Assembly: GCA_031286615.1 (NCBI GenBank)
Contig: JAITUA010000022.1
Location: 62,001-126,000 of the forward strand
Direction: 5' to 3'
From: Chryseobacterium sp.
Lineage (GTDB): Bacteria; Bacteroidota; Bacteroidia; Flavobacteriales; Weeksellaceae
Length of the DNA: 64,000 bases
Shown here in pieces: positions 55,221 to 59,583 of the stretch (its first letter is position 1; each line of letters opens with the position of its first letter). The notes under the pieces are model-generated. The model searched no databases and was not told where the DNA came from. It saw nothing but the letters and a program-made list of their open reading frames with translations. Position numbers and translations under genes: made by a program.

Positions 55221-55727
55221 TTATTCTGTCTTTTTTATGGTTCTTGTTCTGTTTACTTTTCCTTTGATCAGCTTTTCTCTATCTTCAAGTATTTCGAGGG
55301 CCGCACGGCTGTAAGCAAATTTTTTAGCTTCTTTAAGTGTTCCTAAAGCCTGTTTATATTCAAAATTTCTTTCTTGCAGAAGAGAAAGACAGTTCAGAAT
55401 TTCTGATTTGTCAATTCCTTTTAATTTCAGAGCGAATTCAATTAATTTTTCGGCTTCCTTATAATCTTCATTATTCAAAAGACATTCAATGTAATATTTG
55501 GGCGTATTGATATTTCCGATGTTACTCTGCATGGCTTCATCAAAGTATTTCTTTGCGGTTTCATAATCTTTCAGTTCTTCGGAATATACTCTTCCCATCA
55601 GACACAGGCTGTCTGCATCCTCCGGTTCGTAGGATAACGCATAGTTCAGTGCATCCATGCATTCAGAAAGGTTGAATGGAAAGTAATCCAATGCTTCAAA
55701 ATAATATTTACTTTTAGTTAAGGTCAT
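55221..55727 (-). CDS. TPR-repeat protein at the end of the RtcB-PrfH operon
   Basis: A 168-residue protein with about four helix-turn-helix TPR-like units (ALSYEPEDADSLCLMGRVYSEELKDYETAKKYFDEAM is a clear one) and a basic C-terminal tail (KGKVNRTRTIKK). The start is taken at the ATG at 55727, overlapping prfH by 14 bases; an ATG at 55748 would add seven residues. Overlap means it is translated with PrfH. TPRs bind proteins; the partner is unknown. Confidence 0.8.
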   Translation of the reverse strand: MTLTKSKYYFEALDYFPFNLSECMDALNYALSYEPEDADSLCLMGRVYSEELKDYETAKKYFDEAMQSNIGNINTPKYYIECLLNNEDYKEAEKLIEFALKLKGIDKSEILNCLSLLQERNFEYKQALGTLKEAKKFAYSRAALEILEDREKLIKGKVNRTRTIKKTE

Positions 55728-56412
55728 TGTTGTAGTTTTTAAGGTCATTTTTCAAGGCATTCCTTTGTTTTTTGAATGTCTTGGTTTCGTAATTCTTTTT
55801 AAAATCTGTTCCTGAAAATGTACGAACCGGATTTCCACGTTCTACCTGCATCTGAAGAGACCAGGTTTCTTTCAGTTTTCTTTCCAGCTGTTGGATATAA
55901 ACTGCCATTACCTTTTCTTTTAATCTGATAACGGATAACTTTTTATTTTCCAGCTGGGAACGTGAGTCCTGTACAAACACTGTTTCTTTGGTCAGAATAT
56001 GAGTGGCACGCACCGCAGTATTCACTTTGTTTACATTTTGTCCTCCGCTTCCCTGGCTTCTCGCTGTTTGAAATCTGATATCTTTTTCGTTGAAATCAAT
56101 CATTTTTACATCTTCCAATTCAAAAATCCCGATAAACCAATTGCTTCTTTTGTGCAGTTTCCTGAAGGTGCTTTTTCCTATCCAGCAAACTGTTCCCAGC
56201 CAGTTTTTAAGAAACGCGTCAACGTCTTTTCCTTTTAAAAGCAGAGTCACTGATTTTAATGTAAGGTTTTCATCACCATTTTCGCGATGAATGATTTCGT
56301 ACTCTATTGTATTTTGTTTGGCCTCTTCAAGAAAGGTCTTCAGAACTTTAGCGGCTACCCACTGGCATTCTAAAGGACCTCTTCCTGAAGTGATCTGTAT
56401 TAATTTTTCCAT
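55714..56412 (-). CDS. prfH: PrfH: peptide chain release factor homologue
   Basis: A 232-residue class I release-factor-like protein. The catalytic GGQ is at residues 123-125 (SQGSGGQNVNKV), followed by the usual TAVRATHI and basic tail. It lacks the long N-terminal domain of RF1/RF2. PrfH is known as the partner of a distinct RtcB (RtcB2) and acts on ribosomes whose 16S decoding centre has been cut. Here it follows a nucleotidyltransferase-like gene by one base, in the RtcB operon. Confidence 0.93.
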   Translation of the reverse strand: MEKLIQITSGRGPLECQWVAAKVLKTFLEEAKQNTIEYEIIHRENGDENLTLKSVTLLLKGKDVDAFLKNWLGTVCWIGKSTFRKLHKRSNWFIGIFELEDVKMIDFNEKDIRFQTARSQGSGGQNVNKVNTAVRATHILTKETVFVQDSRSQLENKKLSVIRLKEKVMAVYIQQLERKLKETWSLQMQVERGNPVRTFSGTDFKKNYETKTFKKQRNALKNDLKNYNNDLN

Positions 56413-56413
56413 T

Positions 56414-56959
56414 TTATGTTGGCATTTTGCTTAATAAAGGGTGTCCTACAGGATCTATTCCCTTTTGTAATAAATCTTTTGCAGCCATTACTGCCCAGCA
56501 TTTGTCACTGGAATGAATATTTCTGTAAAATGAAAGTAAAATATCGGGTCTCACAACGGTAAACCCATTGGCTTCGATAGTTTCAAGATCATCTCTTTCA
56601 AAGAAATCAATGGTAATTCTGTGAAACCTATCATTTTCCAATTCTACTGTTTTCTCATACCTGCGGAAGTTTTCCTCGCTCGGCAGATGATCATACCGGG
56701 TCCAGACTTTCTGAAATCCTTCCTGCTGAAGAATGATAACCACGTCTGCAACATTTTCTTTCTTTACAAAAACATCAATATCCTTATGGTCGTGAGCATG
56801 TTTGTATTCTGTATGTCCTTTTTCTGACATAAAATGCCATGCCCAGCCTCCTGATATAATGATTTTATCTTTTAATATATTTAAAATTTCGAGTCCCAAC
56901 CGGATTCTGAACTCCGGCCAGACTTCACCGTATCTTTTTATGTTATGTGGTGCTCCCAT
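56414..56959 (-). CDS. Nucleotidyltransferase-fold protein inside the RtcB-PrfH operon
   Basis: A 181-residue protein. The pol-beta-type NTase pattern is visible: GGWAW at 37-41, then DID at 60-62 and a third acidic residue Asp118 in ITIDFFE. The C-terminal FTVVRPDILLSF and KDLLQKGIDP resemble aminoglycoside nucleotidyltransferase or AbiEii-like relatives. Its stop is one base before prfH. Substrate unknown: it could modify an RNA end, a tRNA or a small molecule. Confidence 0.78.
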   Translation of the reverse strand: MGAPHNIKRYGEVWPEFRIRLGLEILNILKDKIIISGGWAWHFMSEKGHTEYKHAHDHKDIDVFVKKENVADVVIILQQEGFQKVWTRYDHLPSEENFRRYEKTVELENDRFHRITIDFFERDDLETIEANGFTVVRPDILLSFYRNIHSSDKCWAVMAAKDLLQKGIDPVGHPLLSKMPT

Positions 56960-57036: not shown

Positions 57037-58428
57037 TTATCTGTCCATTCTCACAATTCTCGGCTGAAATGTTCCCAGAATATCTACCAATTCACTCTGT
57101 GCATTCATCACTTCATTGATGTCTTTATAGGCCATTGGTGCTTCTTCTGCATTTCCGCCCATGAGCGTGACATTTTTAAGTTTTAATTCTTTTTTGATGT
57201 CATGCTGAGTGAAAAGGGCTCTGCATTCTCCTCTTGAGTGCGCTCGTCCGGCTCCGTGAGATGCTGAATTCAGGGAATCCGGGTTTCCTTTTCCGCGAAC
57301 GATAAATCCTTTCGCTGTCATAGATCCGGGAATCATTCCCAATTCATTTTCATTGGCAGGTGTTGCTCCTTTTCGGTGAACAATCACTTCTTTTCCGTTA
57401 TGGATTTCTTTCCAGGCAAAGTTGTGATGATTTTCAATTCTGGCTTTTACTCTTCCACCAACGGCTTTTACAAGTCTTCTGTGAATATCATCATGACAGG
57501 CTGAAGCATAATCTCCGGCGAGATTCATTGCTGTCCAGTATTCTAATCCCAGGTGTGTACTAAGGTCCAGCCAGGCGAAGTTTTGGGCTTCTTTTGGTAA
57601 TGGACACTGTTCTGTCGCTACTCTTGAGTAATATTGGGCAATTTCTGCTCCGAGGCCTCTTGAGCCGCTGTGAGAAAGGATTCCCAGATATTTTCCTTTT
57701 GGCAGGCCAATCTGCTCGTCTTCTTCGGTGATTTCCACTTCTCCGAATTCTACAAAGTGATTTCCTCCGCCTGAGGACCCCATCTGTTTGATTGCTTTTC
57801 CCTTTAATCTTCTTAAGATCGGGATCATATCGAATGTATCTCTTTCAAAAATCTCATGGTCTATGTGAGACTTGTGTGTTTCATACATTCCGAATTTTGT
57901 ATGTTCGGCAAGAGCTTTTTCATATTTATCTCTTGCTCCTTCAAGATATGAAATAGGTGTATCCAAAATACTGAGACTCATTCTGCAGCCAATATCCATT
58001 CCTACTCCGTAAGGGATTACCGCATTTTCCACCGCCAGAACTCCACCAATTGGAAGTCCGTAGCCGCTATGGGCATCAGGCATTAATGCTCCCTGTGTAG
58101 AAATAGGCAGTTTCAAAGCTGTGTACAACTGATTTTTTGCCTCTTCTGAAATATTGTTACCAAAAATCTGAAATGCGGCACGTTGTGAATTCAACATTCT
58201 TTTTTCAGTTTTTTTGGATGAAAGCAGGGCTTCTGCAATTTGTCCGAAAGTCAGATCTTTTTCAAATTCTTCCGGATTCAGCAGGATTTCCTTTAAAAGA
58301 GATTTTACATGGTGAATATTCTTCGTTGCAAAATTTCTTTTCATGACTTCCAATGCTACGTTTACGCTTTGGTTATTTGGATAGCCCAGTTTTAATATAT
58401 CTTTTCCTTTTAGTTTTAAATTTCCCAT
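57037..58428 (-). CDS. rtcB: RtcB-family RNA ligase
   Basis: A 463-residue GTP-dependent ligase joining 2',3'-cyclic phosphate (or 3'-P) and 5'-OH RNA ends. Metal and guanylylation residues are present: MPDAH (Asp118, His120), GMDIGC (Asp145, Cys148), GGGNH (Asn223, His224), SHSGSRG (His253), ENHHN (334-336), and the GMP-accepting His391 in SHGAGRAHSR. Paired with prfH it fits the RtcB2 type that repairs cleaved rRNA. It begins 27 bases after the basic protein gene. Confidence 0.95.
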   Translation of the reverse strand: MGNLKLKGKDILKLGYPNNQSVNVALEVMKRNFATKNIHHVKSLLKEILLNPEEFEKDLTFGQIAEALLSSKKTEKRMLNSQRAAFQIFGNNISEEAKNQLYTALKLPISTQGALMPDAHSGYGLPIGGVLAVENAVIPYGVGMDIGCRMSLSILDTPISYLEGARDKYEKALAEHTKFGMYETHKSHIDHEIFERDTFDMIPILRRLKGKAIKQMGSSGGGNHFVEFGEVEITEEDEQIGLPKGKYLGILSHSGSRGLGAEIAQYYSRVATEQCPLPKEAQNFAWLDLSTHLGLEYWTAMNLAGDYASACHDDIHRRLVKAVGGRVKARIENHHNFAWKEIHNGKEVIVHRKGATPANENELGMIPGSMTAKGFIVRGKGNPDSLNSASHGAGRAHSRGECRALFTQHDIKKELKLKNVTLMGGNAEEAPMAYKDINEVMNAQSELVDILGTFQPRIVRMDR

Positions 58429-58455: not shown

Positions 58456-59193
58456 TCATAAGTCCTGTAAGCTTTCTGCAATCTCTGTTGCAGACATTGT
58501 GCAGGTAATATATTTCCTGCTTTTGATAAGTGGAATATCTTCTCTTTTTCTTCTCCATGGGTATGATCTGCCATCAATTGTTTTGCGGATAATTCCTACA
58601 ATTTTATGCTGTCCTAAATAATCTCCCAGTTCTGCACACTCTTTTTCCAGTTCAAAGTCTACAGGTTTATAGTGGGTAATCATATTGGGCCTTGTACGCA
58701 GGGCAAATCTCCAGGGTTCAATAAATTCGTAGTAAGGAACATAAGACTTCCGGGCCGGGCAATATTCTTCCTGTTTCAAAAAATACTGCCTTTCTCTTGC
58801 TGTAAGGCCCAGCTTTGGGTCATTCCAGGAATATGAAGAAATATGGTTGAGTTTCTGTGCTCTTTCTACATATATTCTCCGCCCAAATTTTCTTTTCTTT
58901 TTTAAAAACTGGCGGCTTTCGGAATACATGTAGGTATTAATTTTCTTCAATATTCCTTCAAAGAAATCTCCGTCTTTGGACCTCATTACATCTTCCCTTA
59001 CTGCAAAGCATCTTACAAATCCTCTTTGATAAGGCTTATCCAAAGGAATCCATGGGATATTTCGTCTGATATTCCAAAGTTCATCACTACGTTGATATTT
59101 TTTTCTTATCTGCTTTTCTACATCTTTTCTAATTGTTCTTTTTCTGCTTCTCACGCTTCTCAGCCGGGAAAACAGAAGGTTATCATTTTCCAT
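58456..59193 (-). CDS. Highly basic protein of unknown function heading the RtcB operon
   Basis: A 245-residue, strongly basic soluble protein (many Arg/Lys, e.g. RKRTIRKDVEKQIRKKY at 17-33 and LKKKRKFGRR). Motifs include WIPLDKPYQRGFVR and SYPWRRKREDIPL. No nuclease, NTP-binding or HTH motif is visible. The charge suggests RNA or ribosome binding; this is an inference. It is the first gene after the putative attenuator and 27 bases before rtcB. Confidence 0.75.
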   Translation of the reverse strand: MENDNLLFSRLRSVRSRKRTIRKDVEKQIRKKYQRSDELWNIRRNIPWIPLDKPYQRGFVRCFAVREDVMRSKDGDFFEGILKKINTYMYSESRQFLKKKRKFGRRIYVERAQKLNHISSYSWNDPKLGLTARERQYFLKQEEYCPARKSYVPYYEFIEPWRFALRTRPNMITHYKPVDFELEKECAELGDYLGQHKIVGIIRKTIDGRSYPWRRKREDIPLIKSRKYITCTMSATEIAESLQDL

Positions 59194-59334: not shown

Positions 59335-59413
59335 AAAAAAGATTTCGGGTAAACCTGGGAGTTTGAAATATTGCGCAATAAAAAACCCGAAATCTCTACG
59401 ACTTCGGGTTTTG
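59335..59413 (-). terminator. Attenuator: terminator with a competing downstream segment
   Basis: On the minus strand AAAACCCGAAG (59402-59412, segment 3) pairs with a T-ended arm containing AGATTTCGGGT (59385-59395, segment 4), followed by six T. A further copy ACCCGAAATCT (59340-59350, segment 5) followed by five T can pair perfectly (11 bp) with segment 4 instead. Segment 3 can also pair with segment 2 inside the leader ORF. Confidence 0.75.
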
Positions 59414-59434
59414 ATATTTTATTGTACTGTTATT

Positions 59435-59512
59435 CTAAGAATGTACCAAACCGCGAAGCCTTACCACCATAAGGGGCAATCCAACTGTAGAATTCTGTTT
59501 AGTTCTGAACAT
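59435..59512 (-). CDS. Leader peptide of the RtcB-PrfH operon (25 codons)
   Basis: ATG at 59510-59512 to TAG at 59435-59437, encoding MFRTKQNSTVG then LPLMVVRLRGLVHS. It sits between a consensus promoter and a terminator. Codons 19-22 (CTT CGC GGT TTG) hold segment 2 (59448-59458), which can pair with the pre-ORF segment 1 (GCTTCG on plus, 59514-59519) or with segment 3 of the terminator. Four Leu and four Val codons are present. No homologue is recognised. Confidence 0.6.
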   Translation of the reverse strand: MFRTKQNSTVGLPLMVVRLRGLVHS

Positions 59513-59553
59513 TGCTTCGTCGTTTTTTATTGGTTAAACTTGATTTTCAGGTG

Positions 59554-59583
59554 CAAATATATAAATTTTTCTGAGAATCAAAA
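59554..59583 (-). promoter_or_regulatory. Promoter of the attenuator/RtcB operon
   Basis: TTTTG (59579-59583), 17 bases, then TATATTTG (59554-59561), a perfect TAnnTTTG box on the minus strand. It overlaps the end of the M28 peptidase intergenic edge, so the leader transcript starts near 59548. Confidence 0.75.

Follow-up and report, generated by a model that had tools for sequence, protein, structure and literature searches.

Upstream of the rtcB-prfH operon of a Chryseobacterium sp. lies a leader that, judged by comparison with related sequences, is a real, conserved cis-regulatory element. It is very likely a cis-acting, ribosome-mediated transcription attenuator that controls the (ORF245)-rtcB-(NTase)-prfH-TPR operon, and it probably turns these genes on upon ribosome stalling. 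Conservation of the leader, its linkage, alternative pairings with some compensatory change and an open frame of fixed length are established. A conserved leader with alternative pairings would provide a concrete answer to how Bacteroidota rtcB-prfH operons are switched on; if this reading is true, it would also give that phylum a natural reporter of ribosome stress.

Layout of the leader and its operon

Leader and operon are located on the minus strand of the window, that is, of the whole stretch of 64,000 nucleotides that was analysed. The promoter (59554..59583), read from the sequence, comprises the boxes TTTTG (59583-59579) and TATATTTG (59561-59554), which we take to be of Bacteroidota type from their consensus; in the second box, T and G are invariant or nearly so among 33 aligned loci. 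From a transcription start predicted near 59548, the RNA would run through segment 1 (CGAAGC, 59514..59519), just 5' of the ATG at 59512, into a leader ORF of 25 codons plus TAG (59435..59512, MFRTKQNSTVGLPLMVVRLRGLVHS). Segment 2 (59448..59460) can pair with segment 1 over 6 bp or, with one bulged C, with segment 3 (59400..59412), which can form either an antiterminator with segment 2 or a terminator with segment 4. Segment 4 (59395-59382) and its T-run (59385-59380) make up an intrinsic terminator at 59380..59395, in which six T follow the 3:4 hairpin. Segment 5 (59340..59350), whose role is uncertain, can form 11 bp with segment 4, and between the two lies the perfect palindrome TATTGCGCAATA (59369..59380), which is present in 61 of the 70 genus leaders. 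Reading the minus strand placed the promoter, the 25-codon ORF, segments 1-5 and the T-run where the initial annotation had put them, and the four pairings it had claimed (1:2, 2:3 with its bulged C, 3:4 and 4:5) are all present as described. A further hairpin inside the ORF (59461..59479; 59479-59475 with 59465-59461) was absent from that account. The fold energy of the window's leader corresponds to a z score of -1.66 and 9 of 200 shuffles fold equally well, so thermodynamics alone is a weak guide here; a simple terminator scan of the window did not have the 3:4 terminator among its output.

The first gene of the operon is optional and encodes a 245-aa protein (ORF245, 58456..59193) for which Pfam, NCBIfam and PADLOC searches returned nothing at E <= 0.001. 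It is followed by the RtcB RNA ligase family gene (57037..58428; PF01139, 269.6 bits, cut-off 27), a gene for a small nucleotidyltransferase-like protein that is missing from some relatives (56414..56959; PF14907, 20.5 bits, below the cut-off of 31.2), the gene of the PrfH release factor homologue (55714..56412; TIGR03072, 207.4 bits, cut-off 166.65) and, as final gene of the run, that of a TPR protein (55221..55748; PF14559, 29.6 bits, cut-off 25). Against TIGR03073, which describes release-factor-linked RtcB, the RtcB of the window scored 140.6 bits, under the cut-off of 271.8. None of the operon proteins recognised in these domain searches is biosynthetic. ORF245, which had not figured in the initial annotation, is missing from many relatives; 53 of the 55 loci with a relative of it are in Chryseobacterium, with identities of up to 95%. 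ORF245 relatives were also seen at rtcB-prfH loci of other families, on either side of rtcB.

Conservation, linkage and helix pairing

Leader DNA was matched in 147 of 148 genus genomes (E <= 0.001), although the match in one of them (G123, 73% complete) is merely a piece. Operon-type rtcB was found in 145 of these genomes (E <= 1e-80) and is missing from G079, G123 and G147. G079 has no leader and no rtcB even at E <= 1e-10. G147 kept the leader without segment 5 and has only a distant rtcB paralog; the 5 kb read 3' of its leader contain none of the operon's proteins. When 70 genus leader loci were fetched and read, 69 had rtcB downstream on the same strand, which supports the proposed link of the leader to the RtcB-PrfH operon, and a check of relatives found leader ORF and pairing segments kept upstream of rtcB. 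Among the 40 more distant of these loci (L038-L077), 17 have the ORF245 gene, 22 have rtcB without an ORF245 match and one (L076) has neither; thus, the leader goes with rtcB. Where ORF245 is lacking, the leader match is separated from rtcB by about 230-410 nt. All 53 Chryseobacterium loci score at least 164 bits, with the leader 170-510 nt upstream of the ORF245 gene, and they overlap partly with the 148 genus genomes and are not an independent sample.

Pairing percentages and two-sided changes were counted on an alignment of 33 genus leaders. The mutually exclusive pairings 2:3 and 3:4 that had been claimed are both kept (96.7% and 91.0% of cells paired), and the values for 1:2, 4:5 and the ORF hairpin are 97.0%, 81.4% and 99.4%. 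In the covariance analysis that the initial annotation had suggested, 3:4 and 4:5 each have 3 pairs with two-sided changes (8 cells in either helix) and the ORF hairpin has 2 such pairs (7 cells); within the genus alignment there are none in 1:2 and none in 2:3. In shuffle controls the pair count of 3:4 was reached by 5 of 500, that of 4:5 by 118 of 500 and that of the ORF hairpin by 17 of 500, and the covariation score by 0/500, 0/500 and none, respectively. When the 3' side was shifted by one column, 3:4 and 4:5 gave a higher covariation score than in their true register, with fewer paired cells; the true register of the ORF hairpin outscores its slid version. A single base in each of segments 3, 4 and 5 varies in concert, the combinations in the 33 rows being A-T-A (20), G-C-G (6), G-T-A (4), A-T-G (2) and a gap (1). 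Conservation of the leader and pairing of its helices are more than chance.

A wider set was assembled from 70 genus leaders, 26 leaders of the family and 5 from outside the family, and 99 of these 101 could be parsed. The final pair of 1:2 is C-G in 87 leaders, A-T in 8, T-G in 3 and other in 1. Within 3:4, pair c0-g0 is A-T in 89, G-C in 6, G-T in 3 and other in 1, and pair c5-g5 is A-T in 79, G-C in 10, G-T in 9 and other in 1. Each of these three varying pairs is standard in 98 of the 99 leaders; on an RtcB tree of 66 tips, their variation takes 2 to 11 steps on each side. For 2:3, s0-c0 is standard in 92/99 leaders (C-G in two) and s1-c1 in 91/99; two-sided changes in 1:2 and 2:3 appear only once other families are added. 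Two flanking pairs that would extend 1:2 hold in only 65 and 10 of the 99 leaders, and by eye the 2:3 bulge seems shifted in several. The earlier claim that 4:5 is also followed by T stands within the genus, where 65/70 leaders have a T-rich tail 3' of segment 5, and holds poorly outside the family (2/5, with 16/24 in the family leaders). Since the tail is not kept there, a function of 4:5 as second terminator appears doubtful.

Proposed mechanism, precedents and rival explanations

The leader ORF has 25 codons in 90 and 26 codons in four of the 94 parsed genus and family leaders, using a parser that accepted 20-32 codons; L153 and L157 have a shorter ORF, whose stop adjoins segment 2. For 75 distinct 25-codon ORFs, pN/pS of codons 2-12 was 0.62, whereas the two frames obtained by shifting gave 1.01 and 0.75; this is a modest indication that the frame may be coding. 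No codon or amino-acid run is conserved among these 75 ORFs.

Ten leaders were folded with a ribosome mask at set P-site codons, both before and after segment 4 is present. With the P site at codon 1, 4 or 7, 2:3 is dominant before segment 4 in all ten, except in L177 at codon 7. At codon 10 or 13, three leaders (L038, L155, L177) go over to 1:2. At codon 22, 2:3 is lost in 10/10 leaders, and at codon 25, 7 bp of it persist in L145 and L151. This behaviour before segment 4 exists supports the direction suggested earlier, namely that an early stall leads to anti-termination. With segment 4 available, 3:4 prevails at almost every position of the mask, L072 and L182 providing the exceptions, which means that switching, if it occurs, has to be kinetic. 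In the absence of a ribosome, seven of the ten leaders are predicted to form mainly 2:3 instead of 1:2, and an untranslated leader may therefore not be off, but may read through.

From the leader we infer co-transcriptional switching, its direction and its signal. RNA polymerase would start near 59548, and the nascent leader would be translated from the ATG at 59512. A normal ribosome run would cover segment 2, 3:4 would form and transcription would stop at the T-run. If, by contrast, the ribosome were delayed within roughly the first 13 codons, segment 2 would stay free, so that 2:3 could form before segment 4 and permit read-through. Given the lack of a conserved codon run, impairment of the ribosome in general is the most likely signal, and it would fit an operon of RNA repair and ribosome rescue.

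Classical trp-type attenuators consist of segments 1-4 and a leader ORF, with mutually exclusive 2:3 and 3:4 pairings. The present leader has all of these in common with them, but lacks a regulatory codon run. We rejected a trp-type amino-acid attenuator because there is no codon run for an end product and the recognised operon proteins are non-biosynthetic. Leader-peptide attenuators have been inferred from transcriptome data in Flavobacterium psychrophilum (PMC9723704); this is flavobacterial leader-peptide attenuation too, but of amino-acid operons, and its main text uses neither the term rtcB nor the term release factor.

For RtcB-PrfH, no such leader had been known to the initial annotation, yet Pseudomonas aeruginosa has one, in the arrangement PA5471.1-armZ(PA5471)-prfH(PA5470). 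The leader peptide PA5471.1 is proposed to attenuate PA5471 (armZ, RtcB-like), which lies beside PA5470 (prfH) (PMC12057347, PMC13041342). According to the passages available from both papers, full translation would result in the 3:4 terminator and stalling in read-through, and deletion of PA5471.1 or an early stop in it is reported to raise expression; confirmation of the attenuation needs further studies, as PMC12057347 states. Like PA5471.1, the leader of the window precedes an rtcB-like gene that is accompanied by prfH and, as far as these passages describe PA5471.1, both have a short leader ORF, a 3:4 terminator, a proposed read-through upon stalling and a constitutive promoter. However, the two belong to different phyla and are likened by layout, not by sequence; ArmZ is known in P. 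aeruginosa as MexZ anti-repressor, whereas the Bacteroidota leader is set apart by its comparative support, its ORF hairpin and segment 5. It is most likely the Bacteroidota version of a kind for which one described precedent, PA5471.1, was found. Together with this precedent, it suggests that rescue operons of distant phyla may be governed by ribosome performance on a short ORF.

As to the gene pair itself, RtcB2-PrfH is reported to protect E. coli against colicin E3 (PMC9223846), and translational coupling was proposed in the 2006 description of rtcB-prfH (PMC1586002), in whose available text neither leader nor attenuat occurs. Among the matches listed in a literature search (titles, abstract openings and passages), there was no account of such a leader in Bacteroidota and, outside Pseudomonas, none of a leader switching an rtcB-prfH operon.

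Could the leader instead be a stand-alone small RNA with a constitutive terminator, the operon having its own promoter further down? We consider this very unlikely. Such an RNA would be in line with the weak similarity to the Bacteroides sRNA BTnc005 (Rfam RF04178; 29.7 bits, E 5.9e-5), with which an A-rich stretch followed by a terminator aligns, with G147, which retains the leader in spite of having no operon-type rtcB, and with the spacing before rtcB in loci without ORF245, which leaves room for a promoter. However, the BTnc005 gathering score (174.8 bits) is far above that of the leader and the other loci found in this search are not at rtcB, with operon-protein hits in the flanks of 0/25; membership in the family was rejected on score and genomic context. 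Moreover, the leader tracks rtcB, both being absent together in G079, and the leaders keep, with partial compensation, an antiterminator pairing for which a plain terminator would have no use. A leader peptide that senses Leu/Val tRNA charging, or that is a drug-specific arrest peptide, appears highly improbable as well, even though the second half of the window's peptide is L/V-rich and contains RLRG, the R-L-R of which we presume to match the +x+ motif of macrolide leaders. The initial annotation had considered the tRNA sensor, but in many relatives the centre of the ORF is of the FAKA instead of the LMVV type while the RNA hairpin is retained, so that the Leu/Val codons are not supported in this role. 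Arg at codon 18 is absent in 12 of the 75 distinct ORFs, and LRG is explained by segment 2, an RNA-pairing element. The codons in question lie in or next to segment 2, and a stall there would cover segment 2 and favour termination. The lack of a conserved amino-acid run makes a specific tRNA or drug sensor unlikely in general.

A real attenuator might also answer any slowing of translation, be it by antibiotic, tRNA shortage or cold, and not damage specifically. This reading, which overlaps with general ribosome impairment as the signal, falls only just short of probable. It agrees with the absence of specialised codons and with PA5471.1, for which responses to antibiotics that target the ribosome and to the loss of cca or suhB are reported (PMC12057347, PMC13041342), but the conserved tie to a ribosome rescue operon can be taken as an argument for damage as the selected signal. 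We hold more tentatively, as plausible and somewhat short of probable, the most far-reaching form of ribosome-mediated attenuation: ribosomes damaged in the decoding centre would stall in the first codons and thereby switch on the repair enzymes, and such short-ORF leaders, in several unrelated sequence classes, would be general for Bacteroidota rtcB-prfH operons, in parallel to PA5471.1.

Leaders beyond the genus and other elements near rtcB

At E <= 0.01, a model made from the genus leaders found matches in 65 of 148 family genomes, including 20 of the same genus. Of the 34 family loci that were read, 25 have rtcB downstream; eight (L156, L158, L159, L168-L171 and L173) have no operon proteins downstream and were taken as chance terminators. 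At the remaining locus (L149, genome G270) the leader is followed by the TPR gene alone, rtcB and prfH not being found downstream. The layout is present on reading in Paenimyroides, whose leader has a weak model score (31.1 bits), and in Empedobacter, which the model missed.

In the class, 59 of 345 genomes have rtcB at E <= 1e-100. Outside the family, 66 places were read. In 19 of them prfH lies within the flank that was fetched (mostly 1.5 kb), a more distant prfH escaping this count; one of the 19 was dropped. As a rule, we looked for a terminator, an ATG ORF of 8-40 codons ending <= 60 nt before it and an antiterminator of -9 kcal/mol or better. This combination occurs in 12/18 prfH-linked versus 6/47 other rtcB upstreams (Fisher p = 4.3e-5), figures to be read in the light of a rule written after many of these sequences had been viewed, a 60-nt limit added after the first run and species that are not independent. 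Among dinucleotide shuffles, it was found in 0/1080 for the prfH-linked and 6/2820 for the other upstreams. The combination was not found in 6 of the 18 prfH-linked upstreams; in five of these (all but L227) an ORF of 14-15 codons was seen before the operon, by eye and not blind.

Among the six other upstreams with the combination, L190, L194 and L201 look like real leaders, at loci with rtcB and no prfH found nearby. By eye, the prfH leaders of L209, L222, L223, L224, L229 and L230 seem to belong to a different sequence class, their final hairpin containing the stop codon of the short ORF or lying next to it. Upstream of rtcB without prfH, 2-8 tRNA genes were predicted at eight loci (L183, L184, L186, L188, L189, L191, L192 and L199); the tRNA scan covered 12 such loci and gave one gene in L185 and none in L187, L196 and L197.

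In the genome of the window, the palindrome TATTGCGCAATA has only two sites, the one in the leader (59369-59380) and a second (L082:2677-2688) that immediately precedes a paralogous rtcB, in a neighbourhood that also includes a divergent HopJ-like gene and a WYL regulator. It is a candidate for an operator shared by the leader and the rtcB paralog. Both genome copies are near an rtcB; against this, of the second sites read in other genomes, 5/10 are at that paralog and 5/10 elsewhere, and at the paralog the palindrome of the window's genome and of three others is part of a longer 7-5-7 repeat that was not seen in the leader.

The upstream regions suggest that rtcB may be under two control modes. 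An inverted repeat, T[AG][CT]GCA[AG]-N4-6-[CT]TGC[GA][CT]A, was observed upstream of 10 of 47 Bacteroidia rtcB genes without prfH (L193, L200, L203, L205, L206, L211, L220, L226, L238 and L239). Among the prfH-linked upstreams it occurs in L227 alone, at a site common to the neighbouring L220. The same inverted repeat is also present at the paralogous rtcB beside the WYL gene.
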